From Lewinella cohaerens DSM 23179 (GTDB taxonomy: Bacteria; Bacteroidota; Bacteroidia; Chitinophagales; Saprospiraceae), in contig NZ_KB903565.1 in assembly GCF_000379805.1 (NCBI RefSeq), forward strand, positions 186,697 through 250,696: a stretch of 64,000 nucleotides of DNA. The letters run 5' to 3'. This document shows positions 41,113 through 62,418 of the stretch, in pieces. The stretch's first letter is position 1. Every line of letters begins with the position of its first letter. A program made the translations under genes and the position numbers. The notes beneath the pieces were generated by a model that ran no database searches, was not told the DNA's origin, and saw only the letters and a program-made list of their open reading frames with translations.

Positions 41113-41114
41113 TA

Positions 41115-43597: not shown

Positions 43598-43636
43598 CGT
43601 AATAGATACGTTACGTTATCTTTATCGTCTTGCCTA

Positions 43637-46600
43637 TCAGTGCAGTACCACTACCTGCTGAATCATCGGATCAAGACCTTCTGTTTCCAGCTTGATAAGG
43701 TAAGTGCCATTAGGCAAAGCCTGCATGTCAATATCGTAACCTTCTTGTGGCCAGTAGGCTAGATCTTTTTGGAACATCACCTGACCGTAAAGGCTGTAGA
43801 TACTGATGGAAGTAGGCTGTTCTGCCAAAACTGGAGCTTTTACTCGAAGATTCCGATCTACGGGGTTAGGGTATGTATTGAATTGAATCTCTTCTTCACT
43901 GCCCATAAGGCTCGGGAAGTTCGCATCCTCCAGCTTTTCACATACAACACTAGTCGTACAGACCCTCTGGCAAGCATTGGCATCTGTAATCGTGACAGAG
44001 AAGTTCTGTGTGGTATAACCCACTGTGTAAGTGATGGTGCTATTCGTCGGGTCAGAAGTAATGAATCCATCACAGTCTGTCATTTCCCAACTGTAGGTAT
44101 ATGGTGCAGTGCCGCCGGTGGCAATAACACCAATCTCGTTGCCACTAGAATTACAGAAAATCTCTTCCGGAATATCAAATTCACATTCCAGTGTATTTCC
44201 ATAGATATCAATGTATTGTTCTGCAACAGTCGTGTTACCACAATCATCAATCGCTGTCCAGCGACGGATAATGCGTAGTCCAAAGTCTGTGGTCAACTCT
44301 TCTTCTTCAAAGATCAAAGTGATATCTTGATCATAGTTGTCTTTGAGGAATACTTCTGCTGGTGCAGGAACCGGATCGTCACAATACAATACCAAGTTAG
44401 CTGGAACATGGAAGATTTCGGGCCCGTAAGTGTCCACATAAATGAGGAGGATACTTATTTCGGCACTATTTCCACAAGGATCAGTCACAGTCCAAGTCAG
44501 ATTGATTTCGGCGAGGTAACCAGTTTCGGCACAATCTCCTTCGTTGTCGAGGAAAGCCATACCTAACACTGCTTCCAGGTTGCTGGCACAGTTGTCATCA
44601 ATAGCTATAGCGCTGTCTCCAAAATCGTAAATATCCTGTGGATTTCCGAAGTCAAAATCAACGGGTAAGATCAACTCGTCACCATCTTCGAGGCCCACTA
44701 GTAGCGGATGGTCAAAGCTCAATACAGGTGCTGTATCGTCGTTGAAGAATACTTGCTGAGTGGCGGTAGATGTGTTCCCACAAGCATCGGTAGCTGTCCA
44801 GGTGCGGGTAAGCACTTGGCCACAGTCAGGTTCGTTAGTTGTTGTTTCATTAAACACAACATCTACTTCCAATCCGCTACATTCATCGAAAGCGGTAACT
44901 GGAAGTGGAATACTTTCATCGTTACAAGTATCTTCGGGAACATTCCGGAGCAATGGTCCTTCATCATCGATGATCGTGATGCTTTGCGCAAAAATGCTAC
45001 TATTGTCACAAACATCCGTAATAGTCCAGATACGTTCGAAGTTTTGCGGATTACCCGCACAACTTACTTCGATAGGCTGTGAGTCTACGAAGGTGATACT
45101 GGCGACCTGACCACAGCCATCGGTTGCTGATATCTCAGGAATAGCCTCTCCGCAAGAGAGTACCAATTCTGCTGGGCCTATTGCTGTGGGTGGGGTGCTG
45201 TCAATAAATTCAATAAATAACTCGTATTCCGACACATTATCACAGAGATCCAACGCAGTTACGATCAATTGATAACGCGCCAGGTAGCCAGTGCTAAGGC
45301 AGTCCCCGGTGCTTAAAAGTTGTAAGTCGGCACGTACATCGGTGTTCCCACAACCATCTCCCACATTGACAACCGCGACAAAGTCAGGTACTTGTAAGTC
45401 GCCTTCTTCAGTACATTCGGCTGGAAGCTGCACGGTACTGCCGCTTGGTAAACCTGTTAAGCCGGGATAATCAATATTGATGGTAGGTCCATCGCCATTG
45501 CTGAGGGTTAGTCGCTGGGTAGCGCTGGTGGTGTTTCCACAAACATCCGTTGCTGTCCAGGTACGCTCGACGTACTGGCCACCTGCACAATCGATAGGAT
45601 CAGACTGGCTGAACTCCAAGACGGCAAACTCACAATCGTCAACCGCTTGTACATTCGGTACAGGAGGGAGGCTGTTTACACAAGCGTCTTCCGGAATACC
45701 TTGCAGGGCTGGTGGTGTGGTATCTGTAAGGAACCAATAAAGGGTCACCGAACTAGTATTACCACAGTCGTCAGTGGCTGTCCAACGTGTCACAAGATGA
45801 CCGATGTAGCCATACTCAGCACAGCTAAATAGCCCGAAATCTTCGTATTCGAAATCAACCTCGCGTTCACCGCTACAGTTGTCAAAAGCAGATACTGCGT
45901 AGCGTAGTTTCGTGATTTTACTATAATCGCCACAATCGACGTACACTTCCTGACCATCCGTATAGCCATTAACATATTCGTCTGTGAAGGCAAGTACTGG
46001 CGGAGTGGTATCTGAAACAGTGATAAACTGATCCTGAACGGTAGGGTTTCCACAACCGTCTACTGCCGTCCAGCGGCGGCGGATAGTATAGTTGTTTGCA
46101 CAATCGCCATTGATGCGGCTGTCAATAAAAGAGATTTCTACTTCTGAACAGGCGTCTTCGGCAGTAGCTTGTTGGAAGGGCACCTCTTCATCACATTCAA
46201 TCCCCGTATTAGCAGGGAAGAAAGTAAATACAGGTCCTTGTGTATCCACAATACGTAGGAAAAGGGTATAAGTTGTAGTGTTGCCACATTCATCGGTAGC
46301 TGTCCATACACAGCGCCAGAGACTGAGGAAGTCAGAAACGCCACATTCGCCTTCTTCTTCGAGGATATCTTCGTAAGTAACGGTAATGTCCGGTCGTGCC
46401 GAACAGTTATCTGTGATGGTTAAGTCATCGGTAGTTACCATGAATGGTGTCCAGTTAGGATCACGTAGATTACATTCTACGTTCATGGTGGCACCATCGG
46501 CCAAAGGCCCAGTTATGACAGGGGGCGTCGTGTCTACGATAGTAATAGTCTGTGTACAAGTGCTTGGGTTGCCACAGTCATCAGTAGCTGTCCAGGTGCG

Positions 46601-49138
46601 AGTGATTGTGCCAGTATTGCCACAAGCTGCTGCGAAACTGTCGTTGAAGGTGATTGCTACGCCTCCACAGATATCCGTACCGGTCGCCGTGCCCGTTGCA
46701 TTAGGGGCTGTTGGCATGCCGCATTCTATTGTTACGTTGGGTGAGCATACAACCGTTGGTGGCGTAGTATCCACAACAGTGATAGTCTGCGTACAGCTGC
46801 TTGGGTTACCACAAGCGTCGGTAGCTGTCCAGGTGCGAGTTATGGTTTCTGTACCTCCACAACCAGGCGTAGAACTATCACTAAAGGTAACAGTCGCCGG
46901 TCCACAAGCATCCATGGCCGTACCGCTACCAGTGGCAGCAGGGTCTGTTGGCATACCGCATTCTACTGTTACGTTGGGTGGGCATACAATCGTTGGTGGC
47001 GTGGTATCCACAACAGTGATAGTCTGTGTACAAGTACTTGAGGTGCCACAATCATCTGTCGCTGTCCAAGTGCGCGTAATCGTTTCGGTGTTACCACAGC
47101 CGGGAGCCGAGAAGTCAGCAAAGGTGATTGCTACTCCGCCACAAGCATCAGAACCAGTCGCTACGCCGGTAGCGTTAGGATCTGTCGGCATGCCACATTC
47201 TACCGTTGCGTTAGGCGGGCATACGATGGTTGGTGGTGTAGTATCTACTACATTGATAGTTTGCGTACAGCTGCTTGAGTTACCACAGTTGTCTGTCGCT
47301 GTCCATGTGCGAATGATGGTTTCGGTGCCTCCACAACCAGGCGTAGAACTATCACTAAAGGTAACTGTCGCCGGCCCACAAGCATCCATGGCCGTACCGC
47401 TACCAGTGGCAGCAGGATCTATTGGCATGCCACATTCTACCGTTGCGTTGGGCGGGCATACGATGGTTGGTGGTGTGGTGTCTACAATGGTTATGATCTG
47501 GGTGCAAGTGGCGGGACTGCCACAGTCAGCGTTGGCCGTCCAAGTACGGGTAATCGTACCAGTATTGCCACAACCAGGTGTGAATTGGTCGTTGAAAACA
47601 GTAGTAACTGCTCCACAAGCATCAGAAGCGGTTGCCATTCCCGTATCGGCAGGATCGGTAGAGTCACCGCATTCTACAGTAACGTTTGCGGGGCAGACAA
47701 TTGACGCTTGTGAGGTATTCTGAATCGTGAAACGGGTAGTTATTGGGTCATCAGCAATGTTTCCACATTCATCTCTTACCGAGAACTCGTTGATTAGGGT
47801 TACCGAACAACTGGTACGGTTTTCTTCGTAAGAATCAAGTAGCGTATATTCCAGATTAGCCAGGTCGCTGCATTCGTCACTTACGCAATTGCTCAGGTCT
47901 ATAAACTGGGTAAAGGAACCACCGGAAGCAGCGGTAAATCCACCATCTATGCCTATAGGGAACCACTCGCCAGTAGGCGTATTGGCGCCTAAAGAACCTG
48001 GACAACCTTCGAAAGTAGCTGTGAAATCCGCGCAGGTAACGTCAGGTGGTGTAGTATCTACTACATTGATAGTTTGCGTACAGCTGCTAGCATTACCACA
48101 GTTGTCTGTCGCTGTCCATGTGCGAATGATGGTTTCGGTGCCTCCACAACCAGGCGTAGAACTATCACTAAAGGTAACTGTCGCCGGTCCACAAGCATCC
48201 ATGGCCGTGCCGCTACCAGTGGCAGCAGGATCTATTGGCATGCCACATTCTACCATTGCATTGGGCGGGCAGGTAATGGTCGGTGGTGTAACGTCTTCAA
48301 TGATGATGTTCTGTGGGCAAGTAGCAAAAGGAACACCATCAAAATAGAGGGTGTAAGTGCGAACAAAATCAGCACCATCATTATCAAATGGACCAGTAGG
48401 GCCACCATTTCCGAAACCTCCACAAACTTCGGCATCTCCATTGTCGACAAAATCCATGGTGATGGTAGCACCACATGATTCTACGTTAGAGAATACATCG
48501 TTATAGTCCGTAAAGCCAGTGGGGATATCACAACCTTCTTCATCAATATCAGGTAAATTTTGACAAGTAGCTGCTGGGGTACAGCAACTCAGTAGGATAT
48601 TAAGGTCACGCCGGCCTGAACCGCCGGTTTTACAGACAATTAATTCTACCATGCCAGCAGTGACCACGCCAATAGGAATCATTGCTCCATCGCCTATCTG
48701 GAAATCAGGGGTTCCACAGTTGATGGAACCATCTTGGATGTAAAAGTCGAAATTACCGTTTTCCTGGGTTTCTAATTCCAACTCACAACCCGCAAGGGTA
48801 GGGTCGGCGGCATATTCTGGTGTGCCGGTAAGGTCTAGTTCTACGATAGCACAAGCATAGCGGTCACTAGGAGGAGCAGCTACTCCACATGGCATACAGG
48901 AGGTACATGTAGAAACACCATCTGCAGGGACCAAGTCATCACAGTTGCTGCCATCGCAATACATGATGTTACAACTCGTGACAGGGTCTGTAGGAGTGTT
49001 GCAATTTTGTTGTGCGAATAAAGCATTGCTGGCTAGTAGTAAAAGTATTGCTGGCAAGTAAAGGATAGAGAGTAATTGTTTAATAGCAATACCGCATAGA
49101 GGCATCAGCTGTAGCCGAGCTAGTCTTTGTGTGTTCAT
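43637..49138 (-). CDS. giant secreted HYR-repeat protein 1 (T9SS substrate)
   Basis: This 1833-aa protein has a long signal peptide ending LLLASNALFAQ, a unique cysteine-rich N-terminal part (to about residue 270), then about seven HYR-like repeats of roughly 80 residues (DTTPPTIVCPPN-VECG-ATG-DACG-TFSD-TPGCG-TRTWTATD-CGN-CTQTI; about 279-880, interrupted by one CADFTATFEGCP module). More divergent repeats follow to about 1700. The end, NTYPNPVDRNLRVK...TYLIKLETEGLDPMIQQVVVLH, is a type A T9SS sorting domain, so it is secreted and anchored at the cell surface. Adhesion or matrix function is inferred; no enzyme motif is seen. Confidence 0.88.
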   Translation of the reverse strand: MNTQRLARLQLMPLCGIAIKQLLSILYLPAILLLLASNALFAQQNCNTPTDPVTSCNIMYCDGSNCDDLVPADGVSTCTSCMPCGVAAPPSDRYACAIVELDLTGTPEYAADPTLAGCELELETQENGNFDFYIQDGSINCGTPDFQIGDGAMIPIGVVTAGMVELIVCKTGGSGRRDLNILLSCCTPAATCQNLPDIDEEGCDIPTGFTDYNDVFSNVESCGATITMDFVDNGDAEVCGGFGNGGPTGPFDNDGADFVRTYTLYFDGVPFATCPQNIIIEDVTPPTITCPPNAMVECGMPIDPAATGSGTAMDACGPATVTFSDSSTPGCGGTETIIRTWTATDNCGNASSCTQTINVVDTTPPDVTCADFTATFEGCPGSLGANTPTGEWFPIGIDGGFTAASGGSFTQFIDLSNCVSDECSDLANLEYTLLDSYEENRTSCSVTLINEFSVRDECGNIADDPITTRFTIQNTSQASIVCPANVTVECGDSTDPADTGMATASDACGAVTTVFNDQFTPGCGNTGTITRTWTANADCGSPATCTQIITIVDTTPPTIVCPPNATVECGMPIDPAATGSGTAMDACGPATVTFSDSSTPGCGGTETIIRTWTATDNCGNSSSCTQTINVVDTTPPTIVCPPNATVECGMPTDPNATGVATGSDACGGVAITFADFSAPGCGNTETITRTWTATDDCGTSSTCTQTITVVDTTPPTIVCPPNVTVECGMPTDPAATGSGTAMDACGPATVTFSDSSTPGCGGTETITRTWTATDACGNPSSCTQTITVVDTTPPTVVCSPNVTIECGMPTAPNATGTATGTDICGGVAITFNDSFAAACGNTGTITRTWTATDDCGNPSTCTQTITIVDTTPPVITGPLADGATMNVECNLRDPNWTPFMVTTDDLTITDNCSARPDITVTYEDILEEEGECGVSDFLSLWRCVWTATDECGNTTTYTLFLRIVDTQGPVFTFFPANTGIECDEEVPFQQATAEDACSEVEISFIDSRINGDCANNYTIRRRWTAVDGCGNPTVQDQFITVSDTTPPVLAFTDEYVNGYTDGQEVYVDCGDYSKITKLRYAVSAFDNCSGEREVDFEYEDFGLFSCAEYGYIGHLVTRWTATDDCGNTSSVTLYWFLTDTTPPALQGIPEDACVNSLPPVPNVQAVDDCEFAVLEFSQSDPIDCAGGQYVERTWTATDVCGNTTSATQRLTLSNGDGPTINIDYPGLTGLPSGSTVQLPAECTEEGDLQVPDFVAVVNVGDGCGNTDVRADLQLLSTGDCLSTGYLARYQLIVTALDLCDNVSEYELFIEFIDSTPPTAIGPAELVLSCGEAIPEISATDGCGQVASITFVDSQPIEVSCAGNPQNFERIWTITDVCDNSSIFAQSITIIDDEGPLLRNVPEDTCNDESIPLPVTAFDECSGLEVDVVFNETTTNEPDCGQVLTRTWTATDACGNTSTATQQVFFNDDTAPVLSFDHPLLVGLEDGDELILPVDFDFGNPQDIYDFGDSAIAIDDNCASNLEAVLGMAFLDNEGDCAETGYLAEINLTWTVTDPCGNSAEISILLIYVDTYGPEIFHVPANLVLYCDDPVPAPAEVFLKDNYDQDITLIFEEEELTTDFGLRIIRRWTAIDDCGNTTVAEQYIDIYGNTLECEFDIPEEIFCNSSGNEIGVIATGGTAPYTYSWEMTDCDGFITSDPTNSTITYTVGYTTQNFSVTITDANACQRVCTTSVVCEKLEDANFPSLMGSEEEIQFNTYPNPVDRNLRVKAPVLAEQPTSISIYSLYGQVMFQKDLAYWPQEGYDIDMQALPNGTYLIKLETEGLDPMIQQVVVLH
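46530..48290 (-). repeat. tandem 240-bp DNA repeats in giant gene 1
   Basis: The HYR units are also repeated at DNA level with a period near 240 bp. Units at about 47240-47480 and 48045-48285 differ at only a few bases although other units and a different module lie between them. This suggests recent duplication or gene conversion. Confidence 0.8.
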
Positions 49139-49755
49139 AATATTTTAATTGTGTGCGTTTGTGTTAATAGTAAAAAAGTGTTTTTATTTCAAGATTTAGG
49201 GTCCGCTTTATTTAGTTATTAGGCAATACTCACCTAGGTCATTGTGGGAACAATAACTGCGTAATTTTTTTTAGTGATTTTTTAATGCAAAAAAGCTAAG
49301 CTGTTACGAACTTTAGCTCGTACACGATATAGTGTCAGCAAAAGTCTTGCTTGACGAAATGATCATTAATTTTCACTCGGGAGTAATATTCGTTCAAACT
49401 ACTTAAACTAAGGGTAAGTGATTGAAAGACAGCTCTTAAGTGAGTTGGCTAATGTGTAAGACAGCAATGTTTAAAATACAAGGGGAGGAAGATGAAAGCA
49501 CAGTTTTAAACTCATCAAAGCTGCTTGTGGGGGACAAGCCGCTTATTGAAAGGGGGTACGATAATATTTATCGTCAGACTACTTGGCGTCAATTTACAAT
49601 TAAAATTCGATAATATGTAAATTGTAAAAGGATATGTACATATTTTAATTTTGATAAATTGATTTGCGTCAAGTAAATTGTTGTTGTTTGAAAGATCGCA
49701 AGCTTCTGGATGCTAAAAATATTGTTCGCAAAAATGGAAGAGGAATGCCTCTAAA
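49139..49755. other. AT-rich gene-free region between giant genes 1 and 2
   Basis: No gene and no family A repeat is seen. The promoter of giant gene 1 must lie in the left part, but no full TAnnTTTG match was found on the minus strand close to the start. Confidence 0.5.
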
Positions 49756-49793
49756 AAAGACGCCCCGGAACATCACTGTTCCGAGGCGTCTTT
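49753..49793 (-). terminator. terminator of giant gene 2
   Basis: A 17-bp stem with one mismatch (49756-49772 with 49777-49793) and loop TCAC, followed on the minus strand by a T-tract. The top of the hairpin, CGGAACA-TCAC-TGTTCCG, recurs in the terminator of giant gene 3. Confidence 0.85.
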
Positions 49794-49820
49794 CAATCTA
49801 ATTCAAGCACCCCGCACTGT

Positions 49821-52800
49821 CTAGTGCAGTACTACCACTTGCTGAATCATAGTGTCAAGGCCCTCTGTTTCCAGCTTAATGAGGTAAGTGCCACTTGGCA
49901 ACCTTTGAGTATCAATCTCGTAGCCTTCTTGTGGCCAGTAGTTCAGTTCTTTCTGGAACATCACTTGGCCGAAGAGGCTGTAGATGCCTACTGTAACAGG
50001 TTGCTCACCGAATCCGCCAGCCTTTACACGCAAGCGTTCACTCACAGGGTTCGGGTAAACATTCATTACTGTTGGGCTATCGCCGCCGCTCGTTAATTGC
50101 TCTTCTCCAGAGTAGTCACAAACGATAGTAACCGACTGGGTAAGTTGGCAACCATTGGCATCCTTTACGACCACCGTAAATGTTTGGGTGATGAAGCCCA
50201 TAGTATAAAGAATCTGCGAGTGGCTGGGGTCAGAAGTAATATAACCATCTTCCAGTGGGAAGGTCAGCTGCCATTCGTAACTGTAAGGAGGTGTGCCTCC
50301 GCTGATAACCACTCCTAGCAAGTTGTCATCAGAATTACAGATGACAGGGTCGCCATCAATGACAAACTCAGCGCTGAGGGTATTGTCAACCACTAGTATC
50401 TCCTGCTGAGCTTGGCTGGTATTGCCACAATCGTCGGTGGCGGTCCAGGTACGGGTAATGAGCACACCCTCCGGTGTTGCTGTCATGGTTTCGCTGAAGA
50501 CAACTTCTACATCCTCATCATAGTCATCGCTAACGATAATTTCCGCTACAGGCGGTACCGCATCACAGAAGACTTCCACGTCGTCAGGTACATTGAAGAA
50601 GTCAGGGCTACCTTTGTCGATGTAGTACACCGTAAGGCTGGCCTTGGCTGTGTTACCACAAGGGTCGGTAGCAATAAACTCATATTGGTATTCCGTAAGG
50701 AAACCATCTGCTGCACAGTCGTCCGAAGCCGTACTTGTTACAGAAACCGCAGCGGTGAGGCTACTGGCACAGTTGTCGCTTACCTCCACATCCGCTGAAG
50801 TGAAGATCAATGGATTTTCAGGGTCACCGAAGCCACCACCTACGGAGATAAATAGTTCATCACCACTTTCCAACCCAAAGAGCAATGGATGGGTGAAGAT
50901 AATGGTCGGATCATTCTCGTCATCAAAGAAGACCTGCTGGGTAGCTGTACTCATGTTGCCACAGGCATCAGTGGCCGTCCAGGTACGGGTGAGCACCTGT
51001 CCACAGCCAGGTTCATTACTCATGTCCTCCATCATGGAAACTTGTACATCAGCACCGCTACACTCGTCAAAGGCGGTCACTTGGCCGTCCAGGGTGGTGT
51101 CGTTACAGGCATCAGCAGGTACGTCACTGAAGACAGGGCCTTCATTGTCGATGATGGTGATGCTTTGTGCAAATGTAGTCGCATTACCACAAGCATCGGT
51201 CACGGTCCAGATTCTCTCAAAAGCTTGAGGGGCATTGGCGCAGCTTGCGATGATAGATTGGCTATCCTCAAAGGTCGTGCTAGCGATGGTGCCACAAGCA
51301 TCGGTTGCCATCAACATCGGGATGTCCTCCCCACAATTGAGAACGATTTCAGTGGGGCTGGTCACTACTGGTGGTGTTTCATCAGTCAGGTCGATCAACA
51401 ACCCAAAAGAGGAACTGTTGCCACAGGCATCGGTCGCACTCACACTGAGGCTATAACGCCGGACATAGCCTTCGCCGAGGCAGTCGCCTTCGCTTAATAG
51501 CTCTAAACCAATGGAAGACTCTCCTGCATTGCAGCCGTCTTCGATACTTACGGCAGCTTCTAAGGCTGCAAGTAAAAGAACATCGTCCGGTTGATCACAA
51601 TCAACGGGGAACCGTACGGTGTCTCCATCAGCTACAGGGCCAGTTTCAGGATGGTCAAAGGAAATAGCAGGGCCATTGTCATCACTAAGGGTAATACGCT
51701 GGGTAGAGATGGTGGTGTTACCACAAAGATCAGAAGCGGTCCAGGTGCGCTCTACGTATTGTCCGCCTTCACAGTCTAGAGGCTCCGATTGGTTGAAGCT
51801 TAGTACTGCAAATTCACAATCATCTACAGCTTGTACGTTGGGCACAGGCGGCAGCGTGCTGGCACAAATATCGTCGGGTACTCCTTGCAATACAGGTGCC
51901 GTTTCGTCAACCAGGTACCAGTTGATAGTAGCGATGGTTCCATTGCCACATTCGTCAAAGGCTTTCCAGGTGCTTATCAAGTGGCCAGAGTAGCCATATT
52001 CGCTACAGTCGAAGCCACCTAAGTCTTCTAAGTCATAAGACGTTGCTACAGCACCGCTACAATTATCAAAAGCTGCTGCTGCACTAGCTATGATCAAGGA
52101 AATATTCCCGTATTCAGAACACTCAATGAAGACATCCTGTCCTGGCGTGTAGTCGCTGACGAATTCGTCAACAAATTCAATGACAGGTGGGGTGGTGTCC
52201 TCTACGGTAACCACCTGTACCACATCATCACTATTACCACAACCATCGGTGGCCGTCCAGGTACGTGTGAGGGTGTAGTTGTAAGGGCAATCGCCGTCGG
52301 TACGAACCTCGGTAAAGCCATAAACCACTTCAGAGCAGGAGTCAAAAGCTTCGAGCTCGGGGACTGGCGCCGTCTCATCACACTCGATGGTGATGTCATT
52401 AGGTTCAGAGAGGAAAACGGGGGGCGTGGTGTCTATAATTTCGGTAAAGAGGGTATAAACAGTAGTGTTGCCACACACATCTTGTACCGTAAACACCTGC
52501 TGCCAACGTGTAAGCATATTGCCTAGACAAGGGCCGTCATAAAGCTGAGTGAGTTCTACGGTAATCCCCGCAAAGTCAATAGCTGAGCAATTGTCGGTGA
52601 TGGTCAAATCAGCGATTTCGATCAGCGGGTCCCAGGTAGAAGAGGGCAGGTCACACTCTACGACGGAGGTGCCCATGTCGGGTATGCCATTAAAGCTTAC
52701 TTCCGGCCCGGTATCGTCGATGAAAGTGTAGTTGCACACAAACGGATCAGAGAAATTACCACAGCCATCATCGGCAATAAAGGTGACAGTGATGACACGG

Positions 52801-55235
52801 CTACAGGTGCCGTCGTCAACTACGGTGATGTCATCAACTGTGATGGTCAAATCGCCTTCATCAATACAGTTGTCGTCGACACAACCCTGTAGGGGAAGAA
52901 TAGGAATACCGCCTACCGTCCAGCCAGTAAAGACGTCGATCTCATCGCCTTCATTGAGTGAAATGGTAGCATCTGCGGGGCAAACGTTACCATCTTCGGT
53001 CGTGAAAATAGCGTCGATCTGGCAGCTCAAGTCAAAAACAGGAGCGACCTTGTCCAGTAGCGTGAAGGATTGTATGAATGGATCGGAGAAGTTGGTTCCA
53101 CAATCGTCTTGTGCCGTCCAAATTACATCAAATGTAGTGATGCAGTCGTCCTGGATAAAGTTGGCAAAACCGCAGCTTACCAAGCCCAGCCCACAGACAT
53201 CAGAAATATCGGCAGGGTCAGGCCCTGAGAAGTTACCCAGAAAAACACCGTCGATACGCAAATCCACACTGATTGGGAAGTCAGGATCGTTGGAGAAATA
53301 GCAGGTAGATGAAACAAAGCCAGTTGGGCACAAGGCTGGGTCAGTCAGCTCAATGGTCACATCCAGTGATCCGGGTGTAGTACTGATGACTGGAGGAGTC
53401 GTATCTTCAATAGTAAAGGTAGCCATAGTGGTTGCGGTATTCCCACAAGCATCAGTAGCAGTGAAAGTAACGGTGGCTGATCCTGTGGCTCCACAATCAT
53501 CAGAAAGTGTCGTGAAGTTGTTAGACCAAGAGATAGCAGTGCAATCATCAGCCATTGCTCCACCCCGACTGTTAAGCCAAGCGTTGAGTTGGGCGGTATT
53601 GCCGTTGCCATCGCATTCTACGGTCATGTTCATCGCCGGTGTGGTGATGTCAGGGTCGTCGTCTTCCGAGAAAATATGTTCCGTAACGATACGGTCGGTG
53701 CTCACATTACCACATTCATCGCGCAGTACAAATTCGTTGAAGATCGATTTCGGGCAGATGCCAGTTTGGTAAGAATTCACCAGCATATAGTCGATATTGG
53801 CAAAACCAGAGGTCATATCGCTGACGCAGCCAGTAAGGTCAACCGTCATTATCGAACTTCCTCCGGCTGCTACGTCGAACATACCATCAGCACCTACATT
53901 TACCCAGCTACCATTCGGTGTGTTGGGCCCCAATGGGGTGGGGCAACGGTCAAACATCATAGAGAAAGTGCCACAAGTAATAGCTGGCGCATCATCGTCC
54001 AGGTCACAAGGGTCACACTCCGCCAGACAATCACGCGAGTCGATATGATTCTGAATACGTGTGATGTTGTTTGCTGTCCAGGTGGTAGCACCACAAACAA
54101 TGTTTCCCCACATGATGGTGGTGTTATTCGCTTGACTGTGGACACCATCAAATACGTGGCCAATCTCGTGAGCACTCAAGGCCCGTAAACAGTTGGAGGA
54201 GTTCGAAAAGTCTTCACATACATTATAACGGTTACTGCCACAAATATCTCCGATTGCATCGGCACAGCCAACCAGGCCAAAATTGTCAGAGTCATCGTCG
54301 TCGTCATCATCGTTACAACCCCGGATATCCTTGGCCGTCCAAAGTTGGCCAAGATCATGGTTGACGAAGTTCACTCCCGCCCACGGCCGGAAAGCATCGA
54401 GAATATCAAAGGCTTCATCTCCCGCAGCATCGAAAGGGTCGGAAGCCAAAGTCGTCGCCACAAATTGATCGACGATCACAAAACTCAGGCTAAAATCGTC
54501 ATACAGCGGTTCCATCAGGTTGGTGACGTTGATGATGAAATCGTTAACGTCCATCACTGAACCGTATCTGGTAAACATCGTAAAATCCCCAGCGGTGGCC
54601 ATTTCCACTTCCACACATTCCGCCATCATTCTCAGTGGATCGGTAGTGCCTTTCGGATCATCGGGGTGAGGTACCGCATAACGCTTACCAGCATTGTGTA
54701 CACATTCTACCGCAGGGTCAGTCAAGATGTCATTTATTTCATAAAAAACGTACTGATTCTTGGGCAGTCCGTCAATTAACCGACTTAGTGGTTCCAGGTA
54801 ATAAACGTTATCCCCGCGTACCAAGCGGGCAATCAGGTAATCTTCAGTGATAGTGAAACGAGTATCGGCGGTTCCTGTACGCCCCTTAAAGGTGATATTA
54901 GGGCGGGGAGGCATTAGCACATGGCCTTCATCAGTGATGGCTATTTCCCGGTAGTTTGGCCCGCGGAGGTCGTTGTGTTCCAGGTACACCTCCCAGTCTT
55001 GCTGGTCAAGTTGTAAGGAGAAATCAAACGCATTACCACTTTGTGTAAGCGATTGTACTTTCGTAATGTCCAGCTCAAATACTTCGTAGACGGCAAAGCT
55101 TTCGTTGAGCTCAGCATGACGGGTATTGAGCTTTTTGCCAGAGAGTGTGGTGGTTTGTGCTTCGGCGAAGCCTGAAATCAGGAGCATCAAAACTAAGCAC
55201 CAAGCAGCACGGCTTAATACATACAAGTTTTTCAT
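49821..55235 (-). CDS. giant secreted metzincin-HYR protein 2 (T9SS substrate)
   Basis: This 1804-aa protein has a signal peptide (LLISGFAEAQ), a propeptide-like region (to about 205), a reprolysin-like metalloprotease domain (about 206-405), a CxxF-type module, then divergent HYR-like repeats and a type A T9SS sorting domain (NVYPNPVSERLRVK...). The zinc motif is HEIGHVFDGVH (356-366) with Met375 in TIMWGNI as the Met-turn. The position usually held by Gly in HExxHxxGxxH is Asp363, with Gly next. An eight-residue Asp run lies at 309-315. Large parts of the repeat region are close to giant protein 3. Confidence 0.88.
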   Translation of the reverse strand: MKNLYVLSRAAWCLVLMLLISGFAEAQTTTLSGKKLNTRHAELNESFAVYEVFELDITKVQSLTQSGNAFDFSLQLDQQDWEVYLEHNDLRGPNYREIAITDEGHVLMPPRPNITFKGRTGTADTRFTITEDYLIARLVRGDNVYYLEPLSRLIDGLPKNQYVFYEINDILTDPAVECVHNAGKRYAVPHPDDPKGTTDPLRMMAECVEVEMATAGDFTMFTRYGSVMDVNDFIINVTNLMEPLYDDFSLSFVIVDQFVATTLASDPFDAAGDEAFDILDAFRPWAGVNFVNHDLGQLWTAKDIRGCNDDDDDDDSDNFGLVGCADAIGDICGSNRYNVCEDFSNSSNCLRALSAHEIGHVFDGVHSQANNTTIMWGNIVCGATTWTANNITRIQNHIDSRDCLAECDPCDLDDDAPAITCGTFSMMFDRCPTPLGPNTPNGSWVNVGADGMFDVAAGGSSIMTVDLTGCVSDMTSGFANIDYMLVNSYQTGICPKSIFNEFVLRDECGNVSTDRIVTEHIFSEDDDPDITTPAMNMTVECDGNGNTAQLNAWLNSRGGAMADDCTAISWSNNFTTLSDDCGATGSATVTFTATDACGNTATTMATFTIEDTTPPVISTTPGSLDVTIELTDPALCPTGFVSSTCYFSNDPDFPISVDLRIDGVFLGNFSGPDPADISDVCGLGLVSCGFANFIQDDCITTFDVIWTAQDDCGTNFSDPFIQSFTLLDKVAPVFDLSCQIDAIFTTEDGNVCPADATISLNEGDEIDVFTGWTVGGIPILPLQGCVDDNCIDEGDLTITVDDITVVDDGTCSRVITVTFIADDGCGNFSDPFVCNYTFIDDTGPEVSFNGIPDMGTSVVECDLPSSTWDPLIEIADLTITDNCSAIDFAGITVELTQLYDGPCLGNMLTRWQQVFTVQDVCGNTTVYTLFTEIIDTTPPVFLSEPNDITIECDETAPVPELEAFDSCSEVVYGFTEVRTDGDCPYNYTLTRTWTATDGCGNSDDVVQVVTVEDTTPPVIEFVDEFVSDYTPGQDVFIECSEYGNISLIIASAAAAFDNCSGAVATSYDLEDLGGFDCSEYGYSGHLISTWKAFDECGNGTIATINWYLVDETAPVLQGVPDDICASTLPPVPNVQAVDDCEFAVLSFNQSEPLDCEGGQYVERTWTASDLCGNTTISTQRITLSDDNGPAISFDHPETGPVADGDTVRFPVDCDQPDDVLLLAALEAAVSIEDGCNAGESSIGLELLSEGDCLGEGYVRRYSLSVSATDACGNSSSFGLLIDLTDETPPVVTSPTEIVLNCGEDIPMLMATDACGTIASTTFEDSQSIIASCANAPQAFERIWTVTDACGNATTFAQSITIIDNEGPVFSDVPADACNDTTLDGQVTAFDECSGADVQVSMMEDMSNEPGCGQVLTRTWTATDACGNMSTATQQVFFDDENDPTIIFTHPLLFGLESGDELFISVGGGFGDPENPLIFTSADVEVSDNCASSLTAAVSVTSTASDDCAADGFLTEYQYEFIATDPCGNTAKASLTVYYIDKGSPDFFNVPDDVEVFCDAVPPVAEIIVSDDYDEDVEVVFSETMTATPEGVLITRTWTATDDCGNTSQAQQEILVVDNTLSAEFVIDGDPVICNSDDNLLGVVISGGTPPYSYEWQLTFPLEDGYITSDPSHSQILYTMGFITQTFTVVVKDANGCQLTQSVTIVCDYSGEEQLTSGGDSPTVMNVYPNPVSERLRVKAGGFGEQPVTVGIYSLFGQVMFQKELNYWPQEGYEIDTQRLPSGTYLIKLETEGLDTMIQQVVVLH

Positions 55236-55785: not shown

Positions 55786-55819
55786 AAAAAACGCCCCGGA
55801 ACATCACTGCTCCGGGGCG
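55786..55819 (-). terminator. terminator of giant gene 3
   Basis: A 12-bp stem with one mismatch (55792-55803 with 55808-55819), loop TCAC, running on the minus strand into TTTTTTGTTT. Almost the same top as the giant gene 2 terminator. Confidence 0.82.
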
Positions 55820-55875
55820 CTTCTAAAGCAAATTCATGAATTTGCCTAGGTTTGCCATAAGGTTTACCCTAAAGG

Positions 55876-58800
55876 TTAATGCAAAATCACCACTTCTCGT
55901 GTCTGCACTTCGTGCCCATCGGCCGTGAGGCGTAGCAGGTAAGTTCCGTTAGGGAAACGGCGTGTATCAATGGTTAGTCCTTCCTGTGTCCATGTATCTA
56001 CCTCCGTGCGAGACAACTCCTGACCAAAGAGGTTGTATAGCGCTACCGTTACGGGTGTGTCTTCCAGGCCATCCGCCTTCACTTGTAGTAGATCATTGAC
56101 GGGGTTAGGGTAAACATTGAGCTTTATAGCGCCATTGTTACCGTTGCCGGTAAAGTCGCCTTCTTCGCCAGAGTAGTCACATACTACGGTTACGGATGCT
56201 GCGTACTCACAGCCATTGGCGTCAGTGATCAGCACAGTAAATGTCTGGGTAATGTAGCCCATCGTGAACAGGATACCCGGCAGAGTCGGATCAGTAGTAA
56301 TGTAGCCATCTTCCAGCGGGAAGGTCAGCTGCCATTCGTAGCTATACGGTGGCGTGCCGCCAGTAGGTGTTACACCTAGGCGGTTGTTGTCGCTGTTACA
56401 CTCAATGACAGAACTACCAAAGCTGAAGGTCGCGTCAATGTCGTTGTTCACCACTAGTATTTCCTGACTTACGGCGTTGGTGTTACCACATTTGTCCGTT
56501 GCTGTCCAGGTGCGAGTGATCAGTACACCGTCAGGCGTAGCGGTCTGTGTTTCGGAGAAGATCACCTCTACTGCTTCGTCGTAATCATCGCTGGCGGTTA
56601 CGTCTGCTACTGGAGGGATAGCCGTACAGAAGACTTCTATATCCGCAGGGATATTGAAGAAGTCTGGAGCGTTGCCATCCACGTAGAAGACGGTAATTGC
56701 AGCCGAGCTGGTGTTTCCACAAGGATCGGTGGCAATGAACTTGTAGTCATACTGCGCAATGTAGCCATCAGCAGCACAATCACCTGAGGTCGTGCTTTCC
56801 ACAAGCACTGCCGCAGTGATGGTGGCACAATTATCAGTCACCGTCACATCGTCGGCAGTCAATAATAGCGGATCACTTGGATCACCAAAACCATCGCCAA
56901 CGGTGAGGAACAGTTCGTCGCCACTTTCCAAACCAAAGAGCAGGTCGCTAGTGAATTCAATTTCCGGCGCTTCATTGTCATCAAAGAAGACTTGCTGGGT
57001 AGCTGTACTCGTGTTGCCACAAGCATCGGTTGCCGTCCAGGTACGGGTGAGTACCTCACCACAACCACTTTCGCTACTCATCACTTCTTCGAGGAAGACC
57101 TGAGCTTGGTTGCCAGTACAGTCATCAACTGCGGTTACCACTACATCAATGCCTGTATTGTTACACATGTCTGCAGGTACACCACTGAATACAGGTCCAT
57201 CATTGTCCAGTACGATGATGCTCTGAGTAAAGGTCATTGCGTTGCCGCAAGCATCGGTCACCGTCCAGGTGCGATCATAAGCTACTGGGTTAGCCGAGCA
57301 GCTCACTTCGATCGGCGCACTGTCCACAAAGGTCATGCTGGCGATTTCGCCGCAGGCATCGGTCGCTTCGATCATCGGGATGTCGTCGCCACAGTTTAGG
57401 GTCAGCTCGTTCGGGCTGCTCACCACGGGTGGCGTCATATCCACAAAGTCAATCATGATGCCCAAGCTAGTGGTGTTCCCACAAGCATCGGTCGCAGTTA
57501 CGCTTAAGCGGTAACGCGCGAAGTAGCCATCCTCCAGGCAATCCCCCTCGTCCATGAGGTTGAGTTCGATGCTAGATTCTCCACTTCCACAACCACTGCC
57601 TACGCTAATCGCATCTTCCAACGCTGCTGCGGAGAAAGCAATGTCCTGGTCACAATCAATAGGCAGTTGTATCAAATCACCGTCCATCACGTCCCCAATT
57701 TCTGGATAGTCGATGGTGATGGTCGGGCCGCTGGTGCCGTTCAGACTGATACGCTGGGTATAGCTGTTCGTGTTACCACAAGCATCTTCAGCACTCCAGG
57801 TACGTTCGATGTACTGTCCACCATCACAGTCAATCGGGTCAGACTGACTGAAGGTAAGAGTCGCCAGTTCACAGTCATCCACCGCTTGTACATCCGCCAC
57901 AGGAGGCAAGTTGTCAAGAGGGGCACAAGCATCTGCGGGCAAGCCCTGGAATACCGGTGCCGTTTCGTCTACGAGGAACCAGTTGATGGTTGCAACGCTT
58001 TCGTTACCACATTCATCGGCTGCTTTCCAGGTGCTGATCAGATGACCAGAGTAACCGTATTCGGCACAGTCAAAACCACCCAGGTCCTGCAGATCATAGG
58101 AGGTAGGAACACCACCGCTGCAGTTGTCAAATGCCGCTGCCGCACTGGCAATGATCAAGGAGATGTTACCGTATTCGGAACACTCGATGAACACATCTTG
58201 TCCTGGTGTGTAGGCACTGACGTATTCGTCCACAAACTCAATTACTGGTGGCGTGGTATCTTCCACGGTCACGATCTGTGTTTCTACACTGGTGTTGCCA
58301 CAACCATCCGAAGCCAGCCAAGTGCGGGTGAGGGTGTAGTTGTTGGGGCAATCGCCATCGGTACGTACTTCGTTGAAGTTGTAGATCACCTCGGAGCAGG
58401 AATCAAACGCTTCCATTTCCGGCATTGCAGCGGTTTGATCACACTCAATGGTCACATCAGCAGGGGAATCTTCAAATACTGGCGGCGTGGTGTCGATGAT
58501 TTCGGTGAAGAGCGTGTATACGGTCGTGTTACCACATACATCCTGCACCGTGAATACCTGCTGCCAACGGGTAAGCAAGTTGCCTGTACAAGGCCCGTCA
58601 TACAATTGCGTAAGTACTTCTGTAATTCCAGCAAAGTCGATAGCCGAGCAGTTGTCCGTAATGGTCAGTTCTCCGATGTCAATCAGCGGGTCCCAGGTAG
58701 TAGAAGGTAGGTCGCATTCTACGACGTAGGTGCCACCGTCTGGAATACCATTGAAGCTCACTTCCGGTCCGGTATCGTCGATGAAAGTGTAGTTGCATAC

Positions 58801-61800
58801 AAACGGATCAGAGAGATTACCACAGCCATCATCGGCAATAAAGGTGACAGTGATGACACGGCTACAGGTGCCGTCGTCAACTACGGTGATATCATCAACC
58901 GTGATAATGAGGTCTGCTTCATCAGCACAGTTGTCGTCTACGCAGCCTTGTAGGGGCAGAATAGCAACGCCACCTACTGTCCATCCGGTAAATACGTCGA
59001 TTTCGTCGCCTTCGTTGAGCGAGATGGTCGCGTCGGCGGGGCAGACGTTACCGTCTTCCGTAAAGTAGGTCTGGTCGATCTGGCAAGCCAGGTCAAATAC
59101 AGGTTCCGTATCGTCAAGGAAGGTGTAGTTGAGGGTGAATGGCTCAGAATCGTTACCACAACCATCATCCGCGATGAAGGTCACGGCGATGGTACGCATA
59201 CAGGTGCCGCTACCGCTAACGGTAATATCATCTACGGTAATGATAATTTCCTCATCAAGTGCACAGTTGTCACTCACACAGCCTGCTAAAGAAGGAACGG
59301 CATTTCCGCCAACAGTCCAGCTGTCGCTTGTCGTAAGTTCGTCGCCTTCGGTGAGGGAAATAGTTGCATCTGCAGGGCAGAGATCACCATCTTCAGTCGT
59401 AAAGGTTTGATCTACCTGACAGGCTAAATCGAACATAGGAGCTTCCTCATCACTGAGGACAATCAGCTGCTGACAAGAGGTAGGCTCGCCACAACCCTCC
59501 GCCGTCCAGGTACGGATGATCGCGTACGCACCGTTGTTACAGCGCATGGTGATCTCATCACTGAAGGTTACGTCTACGTCACCGCACTGGTCTGTAGCAG
59601 TCGCCATACCGGTATCCATCGGGTCGGTAGAGTCGCCACAGGTGAGATCGGCATTAGCGGGACAAACGATCACCGCATTCGAAGTATTTTCGATCGTAAT
59701 GCGAACGAAGAGGTTCGTTTCGGCTACGTTTCCGCATTCGTCGGTCAACGAGTATTCGTTGATAATGGTGGTTGAACAAGCCGTTGTATTTTCCTCGTAA
59801 GAGGCCACCACGGTTAATAACAGGTTGGCTAAATCACCACAGGCTTCCGTTACACAATTGTTCAGATCTACCTCGGTGATAAAGGAGCCACCGGCAGCAG
59901 AAAGAAACGTTCCGTTTGAACTGAGGGTGAACGAAGCTCCTGGTACATTGGGGCCTATAAATCTAGGGCAACCTTCGAAGGTCTCTGCGAAGGTGGTACA
60001 ATTCAGCGCCAGTACGGGTGGCGTATTATCTACTATGGTGATAGTTTGAAGTTGGCTAGTGGAGTTTCCACAACCATCTGTTGCTGCCCAGGTACGGTTG
60101 ATCGTACCCGTATTGCCACAAGAATCGTCAAAGGAGTCGCTGAATGTTATGGCAGCCGTTCCACAAAAATCCGAAGCAGATGGCGTTCCGGTATCCGCCG
60201 GATCGGTAGAGTCACCACATTCCACGTTCGTGTCTGATGGGAAGCTCACAAAGCTAGGAGGAAGATTATCTACAATAGTAATAGACTGAACACACGTACT
60301 GGTGATTCCACAGGGACTGGTTGCCGTCCAGGTACGAGCGATTACGCCAGTGCCTGAACCACAGCCACCAGGATCGAAATTGTCACTAAAAGTGATCGTT
60401 GCCATGCCGCAGTCTGTAGTAGCAGTAGCCGTTCCTGTATCGGCCGGATCCGTCGAATTACCACATTCAACCGTGGTATTGCCAGGACAGACAATGTTTG
60501 GAGGCGTAGTGCTGTTTTCATTAGTAATGGTGATTTTGGTAGTAATGATATCATCAGATACATTGCCACAAGCATCGCGGATCGCGATTTCATTCACCAA
60601 AGTGATGGAACATCCGGCCACGAAATCTTCAGAGTAGGAATCGACGAGGGTCCATTCCAGGTCCGTCAGGTCGCTACAGTTATCTGTGACACAACCGTTG
60701 AGATCAACTTCTACACTAAAGATGCCACCGGAAGCGGCTAGAAAAGTACCATCGTCAGGCACATCCTGCCATTCGCCGTTGGGTGTGTTTGGGCCAAAAC
60801 CATCAGGACAATTGTCGAAGGTGGCGGTAAAATCAGCACAAGTCACTTCGGGACCATCCGTATCTCCGAAAGTAGCCACGATAGTCACCAAATCTGTAGA
60901 AATATTGCCGCAAGCATCTTGAATATCATAGGTGTTGGTCAGCGTTTGGCCACATGCAGCGTTGCCTATGGTGGAACTGACGAGGCGAATTCCTAAGCCA
61001 TTGAAACCATCGGTACAGTCGTCGCTTACGCAGCCGTTAAGGTCCAGTTCAAAGCTAGCTCCGGTACCAATTCCGATACCAACGTTAATCATACCGTCTG
61101 CGGGAATAGGACCGAATCCACCACTGGGTACGTTAGGTGACAAAGTGGCGGAACATCCACCATCAAAGAAAGTCGTGAACTCCGCACAGCTTACATTAGG
61201 GGGAGTCGTATCGACGATATTTATAAATTGTACACAACTTGCAGTGCCGCCACACTCGTCAGTGGCTGTCCAGGTACGAGTAATGAGTCCCGTTCCAGAG
61301 CCACAAGAAGGGTCGAAAGAATCGGAGAAACCAACAATAGGAGCAGCCGGACAATCGTCGTCGGCGGTAGCTGTTCCTGTAGCGGAAGGATCAGTGGGCA
61401 TGCCGCACTCGACGATAAGATCCGCAGGGCAGGTTGTTATGGTGGGATCTACGCCAGGGTCTTCAAAAAGGAATTTCACCAACACGGTTTCGTCCGCCAC
61501 GTTGCCACAGGCATCGCGGAAGGCATATTCGTTGACGATGGTAAGCGAGCAATCAGTACGGTCTTCCTCGTAGGAGGCGATCGTGCTGTATTCAATGTCT
61601 GCTAAGTCGGTGTCGTTATCGCTTATGCAAGCGGATACATCGGCCGTTTGACTGAATATGCCACCCGCTGTAGAGCCGATTTCACCATCAGCGCCAACCA
61701 GAATCCAAGTAGGAGTAGTAATTGTGTTAGGGCCAAGGAAACCAGCACAGTAAGAGAAAGTTTCAGTGAAATCTGCACAGGTCACCTCTGGAGCCTCTGT

Positions 61801-62418
61801 ATTTTCAATCACGGTGCCCTGAATTTCGATATTATCAAAACGCCAGGTGCCGGTGCTTCCCTCTGCATTGTAGCCAAATATTCTAAAAATTATTTTAGAA
61901 TTGCTTAAGGGCTGCATAAAGGTCTGCGTACGCCAGCTTGTATTGTCGGGGATTGGTGTATCAACACTGCCTCCATACCCCGAATTAGGGACGAAAGCGT
62001 CTACCGTTGACCAAATGACAAAAAGGGTAGCAGGCCCAGTTCCCGAACGCCGCTCATCGAAGCTGATGCCGGTGACGTTTAGCGTAAAGCACGGATCTGC
62101 TTCCACAATAACTTCGAGATACCGGTCGGCAGCGATACCACCCGTGGGCCAGTTATTTCCTGAGTAGGAGTCTGTGCTGCCATTTCCCGAAGGAAAAGAA
62201 ACGTTTCCGACATTTGGGCCGAATACAGCAGCAGTAGCGGTTACGTTAGTAGCCATGCTAGTGGCAGCAGTTGTCTCTCCTTCAAAATCCCAGGTGGCCA
62301 GTTGGGCACTGAGCTGGAGCGTTGCAGCTAAGAAGAATAAGACTAAAAAAGATCGTTGAAATGGAATGCATGATTGGGAGCAATATCGTCCGAATCTGTT
62401 GATGTTTTTTTTCATCAA
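55876..62418 (-). CDS. giant secreted HYR-repeat protein 3 (T9SS substrate)
   Basis: This 2180-aa protein has a signal peptide (FLVLFFLAATLQLSAQ), an N-terminal jellyroll-like domain (about 40-205; ATWDFEGETTAAT..., GTWRFDNIEIQGT) of the type found at the start of many Bacteroidota surface proteins. Several CADFTxTFxxC modules alternate with HYR-like repeats, then the same C-terminal repeat series as giant proteins 1 and 2 follows, ending with the sorting domain LNVYPNPVNDLLQVKADG. It is probably exported by T9SS and attached to the surface. Blocks near residues 1170-1300 are almost identical to giant protein 2. No enzyme motif was found. Confidence 0.86.
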   Translation of the reverse strand: MMKKNINRFGRYCSQSCIPFQRSFLVLFFLAATLQLSAQLATWDFEGETTAATSMATNVTATAAVFGPNVGNVSFPSGNGSTDSYSGNNWPTGGIAADRYLEVIVEADPCFTLNVTGISFDERRSGTGPATLFVIWSTVDAFVPNSGYGGSVDTPIPDNTSWRTQTFMQPLSNSKIIFRIFGYNAEGSTGTWRFDNIEIQGTVIENTEAPEVTCADFTETFSYCAGFLGPNTITTPTWILVGADGEIGSTAGGIFSQTADVSACISDNDTDLADIEYSTIASYEEDRTDCSLTIVNEYAFRDACGNVADETVLVKFLFEDPGVDPTITTCPADLIVECGMPTDPSATGTATADDDCPAAPIVGFSDSFDPSCGSGTGLITRTWTATDECGGTASCVQFINIVDTTPPNVSCAEFTTFFDGGCSATLSPNVPSGGFGPIPADGMINVGIGIGTGASFELDLNGCVSDDCTDGFNGLGIRLVSSTIGNAACGQTLTNTYDIQDACGNISTDLVTIVATFGDTDGPEVTCADFTATFDNCPDGFGPNTPNGEWQDVPDDGTFLAASGGIFSVEVDLNGCVTDNCSDLTDLEWTLVDSYSEDFVAGCSITLVNEIAIRDACGNVSDDIITTKITITNENSTTPPNIVCPGNTTVECGNSTDPADTGTATATTDCGMATITFSDNFDPGGCGSGTGVIARTWTATSPCGITSTCVQSITIVDNLPPSFVSFPSDTNVECGDSTDPADTGTPSASDFCGTAAITFSDSFDDSCGNTGTINRTWAATDGCGNSTSQLQTITIVDNTPPVLALNCTTFAETFEGCPRFIGPNVPGASFTLSSNGTFLSAAGGSFITEVDLNNCVTEACGDLANLLLTVVASYEENTTACSTTIINEYSLTDECGNVAETNLFVRITIENTSNAVIVCPANADLTCGDSTDPMDTGMATATDQCGDVDVTFSDEITMRCNNGAYAIIRTWTAEGCGEPTSCQQLIVLSDEEAPMFDLACQVDQTFTTEDGDLCPADATISLTEGDELTTSDSWTVGGNAVPSLAGCVSDNCALDEEIIITVDDITVSGSGTCMRTIAVTFIADDGCGNDSEPFTLNYTFLDDTEPVFDLACQIDQTYFTEDGNVCPADATISLNEGDEIDVFTGWTVGGVAILPLQGCVDDNCADEADLIITVDDITVVDDGTCSRVITVTFIADDGCGNLSDPFVCNYTFIDDTGPEVSFNGIPDGGTYVVECDLPSTTWDPLIDIGELTITDNCSAIDFAGITEVLTQLYDGPCTGNLLTRWQQVFTVQDVCGNTTVYTLFTEIIDTTPPVFEDSPADVTIECDQTAAMPEMEAFDSCSEVIYNFNEVRTDGDCPNNYTLTRTWLASDGCGNTSVETQIVTVEDTTPPVIEFVDEYVSAYTPGQDVFIECSEYGNISLIIASAAAAFDNCSGGVPTSYDLQDLGGFDCAEYGYSGHLISTWKAADECGNESVATINWFLVDETAPVFQGLPADACAPLDNLPPVADVQAVDDCELATLTFSQSDPIDCDGGQYIERTWSAEDACGNTNSYTQRISLNGTSGPTITIDYPEIGDVMDGDLIQLPIDCDQDIAFSAAALEDAISVGSGCGSGESSIELNLMDEGDCLEDGYFARYRLSVTATDACGNTTSLGIMIDFVDMTPPVVSSPNELTLNCGDDIPMIEATDACGEIASMTFVDSAPIEVSCSANPVAYDRTWTVTDACGNAMTFTQSIIVLDNDGPVFSGVPADMCNNTGIDVVVTAVDDCTGNQAQVFLEEVMSSESGCGEVLTRTWTATDACGNTSTATQQVFFDDNEAPEIEFTSDLLFGLESGDELFLTVGDGFGDPSDPLLLTADDVTVTDNCATITAAVLVESTTSGDCAADGYIAQYDYKFIATDPCGNTSSAAITVFYVDGNAPDFFNIPADIEVFCTAIPPVADVTASDDYDEAVEVIFSETQTATPDGVLITRTWTATDKCGNTNAVSQEILVVNNDIDATFSFGSSVIECNSDNNRLGVTPTGGTPPYSYEWQLTFPLEDGYITTDPTLPGILFTMGYITQTFTVLITDANGCEYAASVTVVCDYSGEEGDFTGNGNNGAIKLNVYPNPVNDLLQVKADGLEDTPVTVALYNLFGQELSRTEVDTWTQEGLTIDTRRFPNGTYLLRLTADGHEVQTREVVILH

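Follow-up and report, generated by a model that had tools for sequence, protein, structure and literature searches.

How three neighboring genes came to carry the same long C-terminal part beneath three different N-terminal heads is the question raised by a locus in the draft genome (7.3 Mb) of Lewinella cohaerens DSM 23179. The stretch analyzed here, referred to as the window, is 64,000 nucleotides long (G000:C35:186697-250696) and contains three adjacent minus-strand open reading frames (ORFs), all open and free of internal stops. Gene A (43637..49138, 1833 residues) encodes a cysteine-rich head, an HYR array and a nine-domain module; gene B (49821..55235, 1804 residues) encodes a metzincin-like head and the module; and gene C (55876..62418) encodes a jelly-roll head, several HYR-type domains and the module. 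The order of transcription is C, B, A. Gene C opens with TTG-ATG and would give 2180 residues from the TTG; the ATG one codon downstream is the likelier start, giving 2179. An earlier reading of the window (the original prediction) had described three giant adjacent ORFs of 1833, 1804 and 2180 residues with a common C-terminal part and differing heads, and this description was confirmed. We hold with fair confidence that A, B and C are surface display proteins exported by the type IX secretion system (T9SS), in which a common stalk lies under different heads, and that the stalks recombine within the genus.

The C-terminal 959-961 residues of A, B and C are colinear and can be aligned end to end, with protein identities of 52% (A-B), 47% (A-C) and 69% (B-C). 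These modules, all on the minus strand (A, 43637..46519, 960 residues; B, 49821..52700, 959 residues; C, 55876..58761, 961 residues), consist of nine HYR-type domains, an SprB-like stretch that scored mostly below the cut-off and then a sorting domain. The HYR_4C family (PF23237) matched A, B and C with 130.8, 66.5 and 87.4 bits, respectively, relative to a curated cut-off of 27. The arrangement of the domains was compared in 16 close copies of the module, taken from four genomes of the genus (g1), and in three distant copies. The cysteine of the DxCGN motif, in nine columns placed by alignment to B, was present in 143 of the 144 cells of the close copies; the lone exception was a tyrosine in G3_51. 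Successive DxCGN cysteines in the close copies were spaced 78-79, 96-97, 75-77, 99-101, 77-78, 76, 100-102 and 77-78 residues apart, and in the distant copies the spacings were 74-80 or 94-101 residues, so that the register was nearly kept. Requiring cysteine in 12 or more of the 16 close rows gave 36 cysteine columns; 35 of them were filled in all 16 copies and the last in 15. Of these 36, every distant row retained 34. Over the 19 rows, 31 of 36 cysteine columns were invariant, the highest share of any residue, compared to 21 of 65 for aspartate and 17 of 52 for glycine. Outside the module the sequence differed freely among the genes. Judged by these alignments, the module is a fixed unit and not a loose array of repeats.

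Cysteine was unusually frequent in the three proteins, as had been claimed, at 5.5% (A), 3.9% (B) and 4.45% (C) relative to 0.83% in other ORFs of the window (67 of 8087 residues in 17 hand-picked ORFs). Because cysteine is the best conserved residue in the module, it is plausible that they form many disulfides, and the original prediction stands to this extent, with the bonds themselves predicted only. A sequence search of the module against the PDB returned two 75-residue chains that matched the sorting domain only (Endonuclease I and a Por sorting domain, with E-values of 0.0083 and 0.83). In A, 237-bp HYR units form an array directly upstream of the module (46541..47686, minus strand).

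Between the HYR domains upstream of the module, A, B and C also contain a stretch of about 110 residues that opens with T-C-A-D-F-T or a similar sequence. One example lies at 61460-61790 on the minus strand, and a Pfam-type scan gave no family specific to these stretches.

The signals for export were consistent in all three proteins. Predicted T9SS type A sorting domains were found on the minus strand at 43673..43873 in A, at 49830..50060 in B and at 55888..56115 in C; the domain of A shares 60 of 82 residues with that of B. The C-terminal Por_Secre_tail family (Pfam, cut-off 27) scored 34.4, 39.1 and 40.5 bits in A, B and C, respectively, and TIGR04183 (T9SS type A, NCBIfam, cut-off 23) scored 26.4, 29.4 and 32.8 bits, all over the cut-offs. 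The same genome encodes SprA (2345 bits) and the T9SS/PorU sortase (1182 bits), and hydrophobic N-termini were seen by eye in A, B and C. In agreement with the export route proposed in the original prediction, A, B and C are probably T9SS type A cargo that is shown at the cell surface. Since the sorting domain is C-terminal here, the constant module would adjoin the cell and the varied part would face outward, a polarity set by the processing of T9SS cargo.

The heads differ as expected from the earlier reading, being cysteine-rich in A, marked by a metzincin motif in B and folded as a jelly roll in C, as judged from sequence or from a predicted model. The head of A (48246..49021, minus strand) falls in no known family; it was matched in four genomes, its own among them, of the 80 that were searched (the window's genome and 79 relatives). 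The head of B (54008..55160, minus strand) comprises a metzincin-like metalloprotease, with the motif HEIGHVFDGVH and a downstream methionine, together with its N-terminal region. Residues 26-410 belong to a family matched in 38 of the 80 genomes at E <=1e-15, and HExxHxxxxxH with the downstream methionine was kept at all 20 head loci that were fetched, the window's own included. A search of the protease head against the PDB by sequence gave one weak chain (E 0.15), vascular apoptosis-inducing protein 1, a snake-venom metalloprotease. The head of C (61797..62310, minus strand) is predicted to be a beta-sandwich jelly roll of the carbohydrate-binding module (CBM) or MAM type (predicted local distance difference test score, pLDDT, 83.5), and matches were found in 12 of the 80 genomes; the alignment excluded locus L121, which has an internal stop. 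The assignment came from the predicted structure and a fold search, in which the closest neighbors were CBM61 (Z 11.4), meprin beta (11.0) and CBM4 (up to 10.8). MAM- and reelin-type folds scored about alike, so the fold leaves the choice between sugar and protein binding undecided. By sequence, the head of C found one chain in the PDB that was of no use (E 0.17).

Several results speak against these assignments. The AlphaFold model of the head of A, built from a four-row alignment, was unusable (mean pLDDT 38.4). The Reprolysin-type Pfam model (cut-off 27) scored 25.9 in B, below the cut-off; on related heads it scored 21.3 and 20.6 (G2_1331k and G1_43, also below) and 31.1 in G3_38 (over). 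The canonical metzincin motif, HExxHxxGxxH, has glycine at the eighth position, but this residue is aspartate in B and the glycine is missing at 18 of the 20 loci. The Foldseek TM-scores obtained with the head of C were low (0.31-0.44 by query length). The head of B is best described as a putative metzincin-like protease and not as a proven member of that group.

Other modules of the genus carry yet other heads: a NosD/right-handed beta-helix (G2_2214k), DUF4082 with repeat-like sequence (G2_2221k), a beta-helix with a MopE-type region (G3_51), a MopE-type region (G2_830k) and almost no head at all (G1_32b). At least five kinds of head thus appear to sit on the nine-domain stalk. By eye, the beta-helix head of G2_2214k (L075:7202-10966) appears to be made of two near-identical tandem halves (approximately residues 21-385 and 388-760), which points to a recent duplication within the head.

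In the mechanism that we propose, A, B and C would reach the periplasm by Sec export and pass through the SprA translocon by way of the C-terminal sorting domain, and PorU-type processing, as judged from the protein families, would then anchor or release the protein. Because the C-terminus would be the anchored end, the HYR module with its nine domains and 36 cysteines would form a membrane-proximal stalk, presumably stiffened by disulfides, that holds outward a metalloprotease in B, a jelly roll of the carbohydrate- or protein-binding type in C and a cysteine-rich domain in A. We infer the export, the C-terminal anchoring, the distal head, the disulfides, the protease activity and the ligand binding alike. 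As to the role of these proteins, the adhesion, matrix or prey contact suggested in the original prediction is hypothetical, and our guess is the surface-bound capture and digestion of polymers or of the surfaces of other cells. A bolder and rather doubtful idea is that the module serves one bacterial family as a common chassis and a disulfide-ribbed surface ruler of standard length, that stalks may pair so that protease, binding and beta-helix heads act together in a mixed complex and that ongoing gene conversion keeps the stalks interchangeable; if so, the distance of a head from the cell would be constant whichever head is attached.

The strict conservation of the module raises the possibility that it is itself the working part, either an adhesin or a self-binding scaffold like the adhesin domains of gingipains, and that the heads are accessory. 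In favor of this, the layout of the module is much more conserved than the heads, G1_32b carries a module with almost no head, and gingipain adhesin domains are described as remaining associated in complexes (PMC5266723). However, the module is not known to have a ligand or to form a complex, no tested function was found for HYR_4C domains, and a rigid length alone would explain the constraint too. We regard this alternative as somewhat unlikely, yet of the competing explanations it fares best.

Evidence that stalks recombine beneath their heads came mainly from G002, a genome of the same genus in a single contig of 7.5 Mb. Three of its genes, G2_1331k (protease head), G2_1338k (jelly roll) and G2_2214k (beta-helix), share 3.0-3.5 kb at 89-92% DNA identity, with G2_2214k located 0.88 Mb away from the other two. 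Their heads gave no mutual match over 100 nt. When the module was divided into 300-bp windows, G2_1338k and G2_2214k were 91-99% identical, while G2_1331k was 76-86% identical to both over the first 0.7 kb and 90-100% identical beyond. A GENECONV-like test detected an identical tract of 672 nt between G2_1331k and G2_2214k, representing a run of 156 shared variable sites compared to at most 23 in 2000 permutations. Identity at fourfold-degenerate sites was 0.80-0.84 among the modules of the three paralogues. Between species it was 0.48 for the protease heads and 0.65 for the jelly-roll heads, and for the modules 0.49-0.51 (C- and D-type), 0.37 (B-type) and 0.31 (A-type). Because the identity of the paralogues exceeds the level between species, the stalks of G002 appear to have been made alike after the species split.

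A conflict between heads and modules was also apparent in the protease-headed genes. A gene of this kind lies at the atpB locus in three of four genomes (the window; G002, L074; G001, L078); in G003, no atpB was present within the 17 kb fetched around the protease-headed gene. Over approximately 410 columns, identities among the four protease heads range from 53.5 to 83.5%. The heads of B and G2_1331k are 84.3% identical over 407 columns but their modules only 66%, and the module of G2_1331k is 94.5% identical to that of G2_1338k and 84% to that of C. The modules of protease-headed genes split into two deep clades, and forcing them into one cost 672 log units and was rejected (p-AU 1e-5, approximately unbiased test) in a tree of 17 of 20 rows from which G016, G007 and G2_111k had been dropped; this test was chosen by head type after the first tree had been seen. 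In segment tests, the pairing of B with G2_1331k was rejected in module columns 330-620 and 620-930. The part trees for the tract and segment tests left out 9 of 20 genes. In a second head family, the heads of G2_2221k and G3_51 share 50-61% protein identity in their best stretches and their modules fall in different clusters, which points more weakly to separate histories too.

Taken from these trees and identities, heads and stalks appear to have separate histories. Homologous exchange between paralogues, tandem or distant, would replace and homogenize the stalk beneath fixed heads, and homologous recombination between long similar stalks would require no dedicated enzyme. The original prediction of one scaffold with exchangeable heads was upheld insofar as signs of exchange were found between related genomes; in the best case, however, it was the stalk that was replaced under a conserved head.

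Against this interpretation, the permutation test ignores the uneven conservation along the gene, and the strongest case of conversion comes from one genome (G002). The A- and B-type modules (0.31 and 0.37) are more diverged between species than the C- and D-types, the pairing of B with G2_1331k stands in columns 1-270 (p 0.115), and the clade tests were chosen with knowledge of a first tree or identity profile.

The near-identical modules of G002 could instead have arisen by duplication of whole genes followed by replacement of the heads, without conversion of the stalks. G2_2214k is at another locus and its head has no match in G2_1331k or G2_1338k, so it could be a re-headed copy. In contrast, G2_1331k is found at the atpB locus like B and has an orthologous head (84%) on a foreign module, which indicates that it was the stalk that changed there. 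Moreover, the sorting domain of G2_2214k falls outside the supported group of C, G2_1331k and G2_1338k, which fits a tract with two ends. We consider head replacement unlikely as the source of these modules.

Exchange within the window itself was more limited. A fourth full copy of the module, D, is encoded in the same genome on contig G000:C40 by a gene cut short at its 5' end by the contig boundary, and is 64% identical to that of B. Among the four modules A-D there was no long recent tract, which counts against recombination of the stalks in this genome. The longest shared runs covered 5-12 variable sites (10-24 nt); those of A-B (14 nt) and A-D (10 nt) were rare in permutations (21/2000 and 10/2000, respectively), and those of the other four of the six pairs were not. 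The sorting domains, by comparison, departed from the pattern of identities seen over the module as a whole. Over 82 residues, A and B shared 60, B and C 41 and A and C 34. Holding clade II together in the sorting domain was rejected (p 0.0016) with 15 of 20 rows, G016 and four rows that lack the YPNP anchor having been removed. This result owes in part to the grouping of G1_32a with G2_830k and weakens to p 0.025 when these are removed as well (13 of 20 rows). In addition, the grouping of A with B fits best but no clade is supported, and clade II with A added is not rejected (p 0.17). We take this as moderate evidence that A and B have exchanged in the sorting domain. The suggestion of exchange at this locus is thus retained only for the likeness of A and B that is confined to the sorting domain, and not as a long recent conversion tract.

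This picture bears on plain tandem duplication, in which head and stalk were kept together and diverged independently, the likeness of the stalks reflecting descent and constraint. The modules of the window are indeed old (47-69% identical, with a fourfold identity of 0.37 for B-C) and lack long conversion tracts, and the modules of C and G2_1338k, and of D and G2_2221k, are as similar as orthologues should be. However, the head and module trees of the protease family conflict, modules of G002 with unrelated heads are more alike at fourfold sites than modules between species, and the sorting domains of A and B do not follow the rest of the module. This explanation is improbable overall, and for G002 it has largely been refuted already. 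That the G002 modules are assembly artefacts is highly improbable: long near-identical repeats do assemble poorly, and copy D of the window's genome runs off a contig end, but G002 is a single contig, its copies differ by 0-24% in 300-bp windows of the module, and a collapse would have made them identical throughout.

The module was found in a narrow range of organisms. It was matched at E <=1e-80 in 7 of the 80 genomes, four of genus g1 and three from other genera of the same family. The four genomes of the genus carry 4 (the window's own), 3, 7 and 3 copies, 17 in total, of which 16 are close and one is distant (G2_111k). The other three genomes have one copy each; one of these (G016) is partial with an internal stop and was dropped from all trees and counts. 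A contig scan gave three loci, one close (L086) and two distant that were left unused. In profile searches, 10 of 298 genomes of the order matched at 1e-60, all from the same family and one (G227) in part only, and a draw of 296 genomes of the phylum gave three matches, the window's own genome and two of the family. These counts are lower bounds, since two candidates were scored per genome and misses are possible. Within the genomes searched, the module looks restricted to one family. The other HYR proteins of the window's genome gave no full-length match to the module and at most contained parts of it. Large HYR/HYR_4C reading frames of approximately 1300-3750 residues lie on its contigs C1, C6, C7, C12, C26, C27, C45 and C56. 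In an open-access literature search, which did not cover most subscription papers, no report of the module was found, and no paper among those searched joined the HYR domain with T9SS.

Of the known systems, the gingipain/HagA set of Porphyromonas gingivalis comes closest in the way it appears to work, without belonging to the same family by sequence. The heads of gingipains are cysteine proteases. RgpA, Kgp and HagA have identical adhesin repeats within and between genes, combinatorial modularity and recombination and, like the proteins described here, combine a T9SS C-terminal domain and shared C-terminal modules with a protease head or, in HagA, with none (PMC5266723). Their adhesin part is made of cleaved-adhesin and DUF2436 domains, whereas metzincin-like or non-protease heads are combined here with a module of nine HYR domains and 36 cysteines. 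With E-values of up to 1 allowed, none of A, B and C gave a match to a gingipain catalytic, cleaved-adhesin or DUF2436 Pfam family. In fold, however, the jelly roll of C is similar to the gingipain K1 and K3 adhesin domains (Z 9.8 and 10.0) as well as to many carbohydrate-binding modules.

Two other systems share some of these features. LigA and LigB of Leptospira are lipoproteins and not T9SS cargo. Their shared part is N-terminal and built of Big_2 domains, in contrast to the C-terminal module with heads of unrelated folds seen here. They are similar to A, B and C in being tandem Ig-like surface proteins with a common part and differing remainders, and the near-identical shared part is kept alike by proposed gene conversion (PMC7821625). 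In TpsA and TpsC of Neisseria meningitidis, ends of the surface proteins are replaced by recombination between related copies (PMC3848433); in that system, cassettes that lack a signal sequence supply the new variable end, whereas here the common part would be overwritten, and no such cassettes were seen at the loci fetched. Proteins with HYR_4C (PF23237) or HYR (PF02494) domains from Bacteroidota have the same domain types as the module, but the fixed nine-domain unit was met in one family only among the genomes searched. Modular exchange itself is known elsewhere; what sets this case apart is the fixed, cysteine-rich stalk of nine domains that can be recognized across genera.

Seen one at a time, giant T9SS proteins rich in repeats are readily dismissed as HYR or sorting-domain proteins. 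A fixed part that is recognizable across paralogues and genera opens heads and stalk to separate study, offers a natural test of part exchange in surface proteins outside well-studied pathogens and predicts a definable joint at which the T9SS cargo of this family is modular. Whether and how disulfides form in proteins that must cross the SprA channel is a testable question raised by the 36 conserved cysteines.

With regard to expression, each gene was proposed to have its own terminator and to be transcribed separately. Stem-loops followed by a T-run were found on the minus strand at 43562..43598 (A), 49755..49794 (B) and 55787..55824 (C), with stabilities of -28.9, -31.4 and -31.3 kcal/mol, respectively; equal stability was reached in 0 of 200 shuffles in each case. 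A simple terminator scan listed only those of A and C. The three are similar to each other by eye, as duplicated genes would have. In the three upstream gaps of A, B and C, no match to a strict Bacteroidota-type promoter pattern was found, and a sigma-70 scan gave 31 sites compared to 26.4 expected, so no promoter is claimed. The claim of terminators was borne out for all three genes; from these and the gaps of 0.6-0.7 kb only, separate transcription is likely.

The locus is flanked upstream by the ATP synthase A chain gene atpB (63010..63999, plus strand), which runs off the window and is common to G002 and G001, and downstream by a histidine-kinase-like gene, named by eye (41115..42122, plus strand), which is common to G002. 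The gene order is atpB-C-B-A in the window, and in G002 it is atpB, two ORFs, the protease gene and the jelly-roll gene. The two G002 ORFs (L074:2073-4166) are transporter- and patatin-like by eye, and none lie there in the window. A gene for a FIST-domain protein ends 2 bases before the histidine-kinase-like gene, and the two (39979-42122, plus strand) are likely a sensor pair. No tRNA gene was detected in the window. Finally, an ORF of 1441 residues at 7623-11948 (minus strand) matches an AcrB-type efflux pump over residues 5-1034 and, over residues 1265-1441, an outer-membrane efflux protein domain, an apparent pump-channel fusion.

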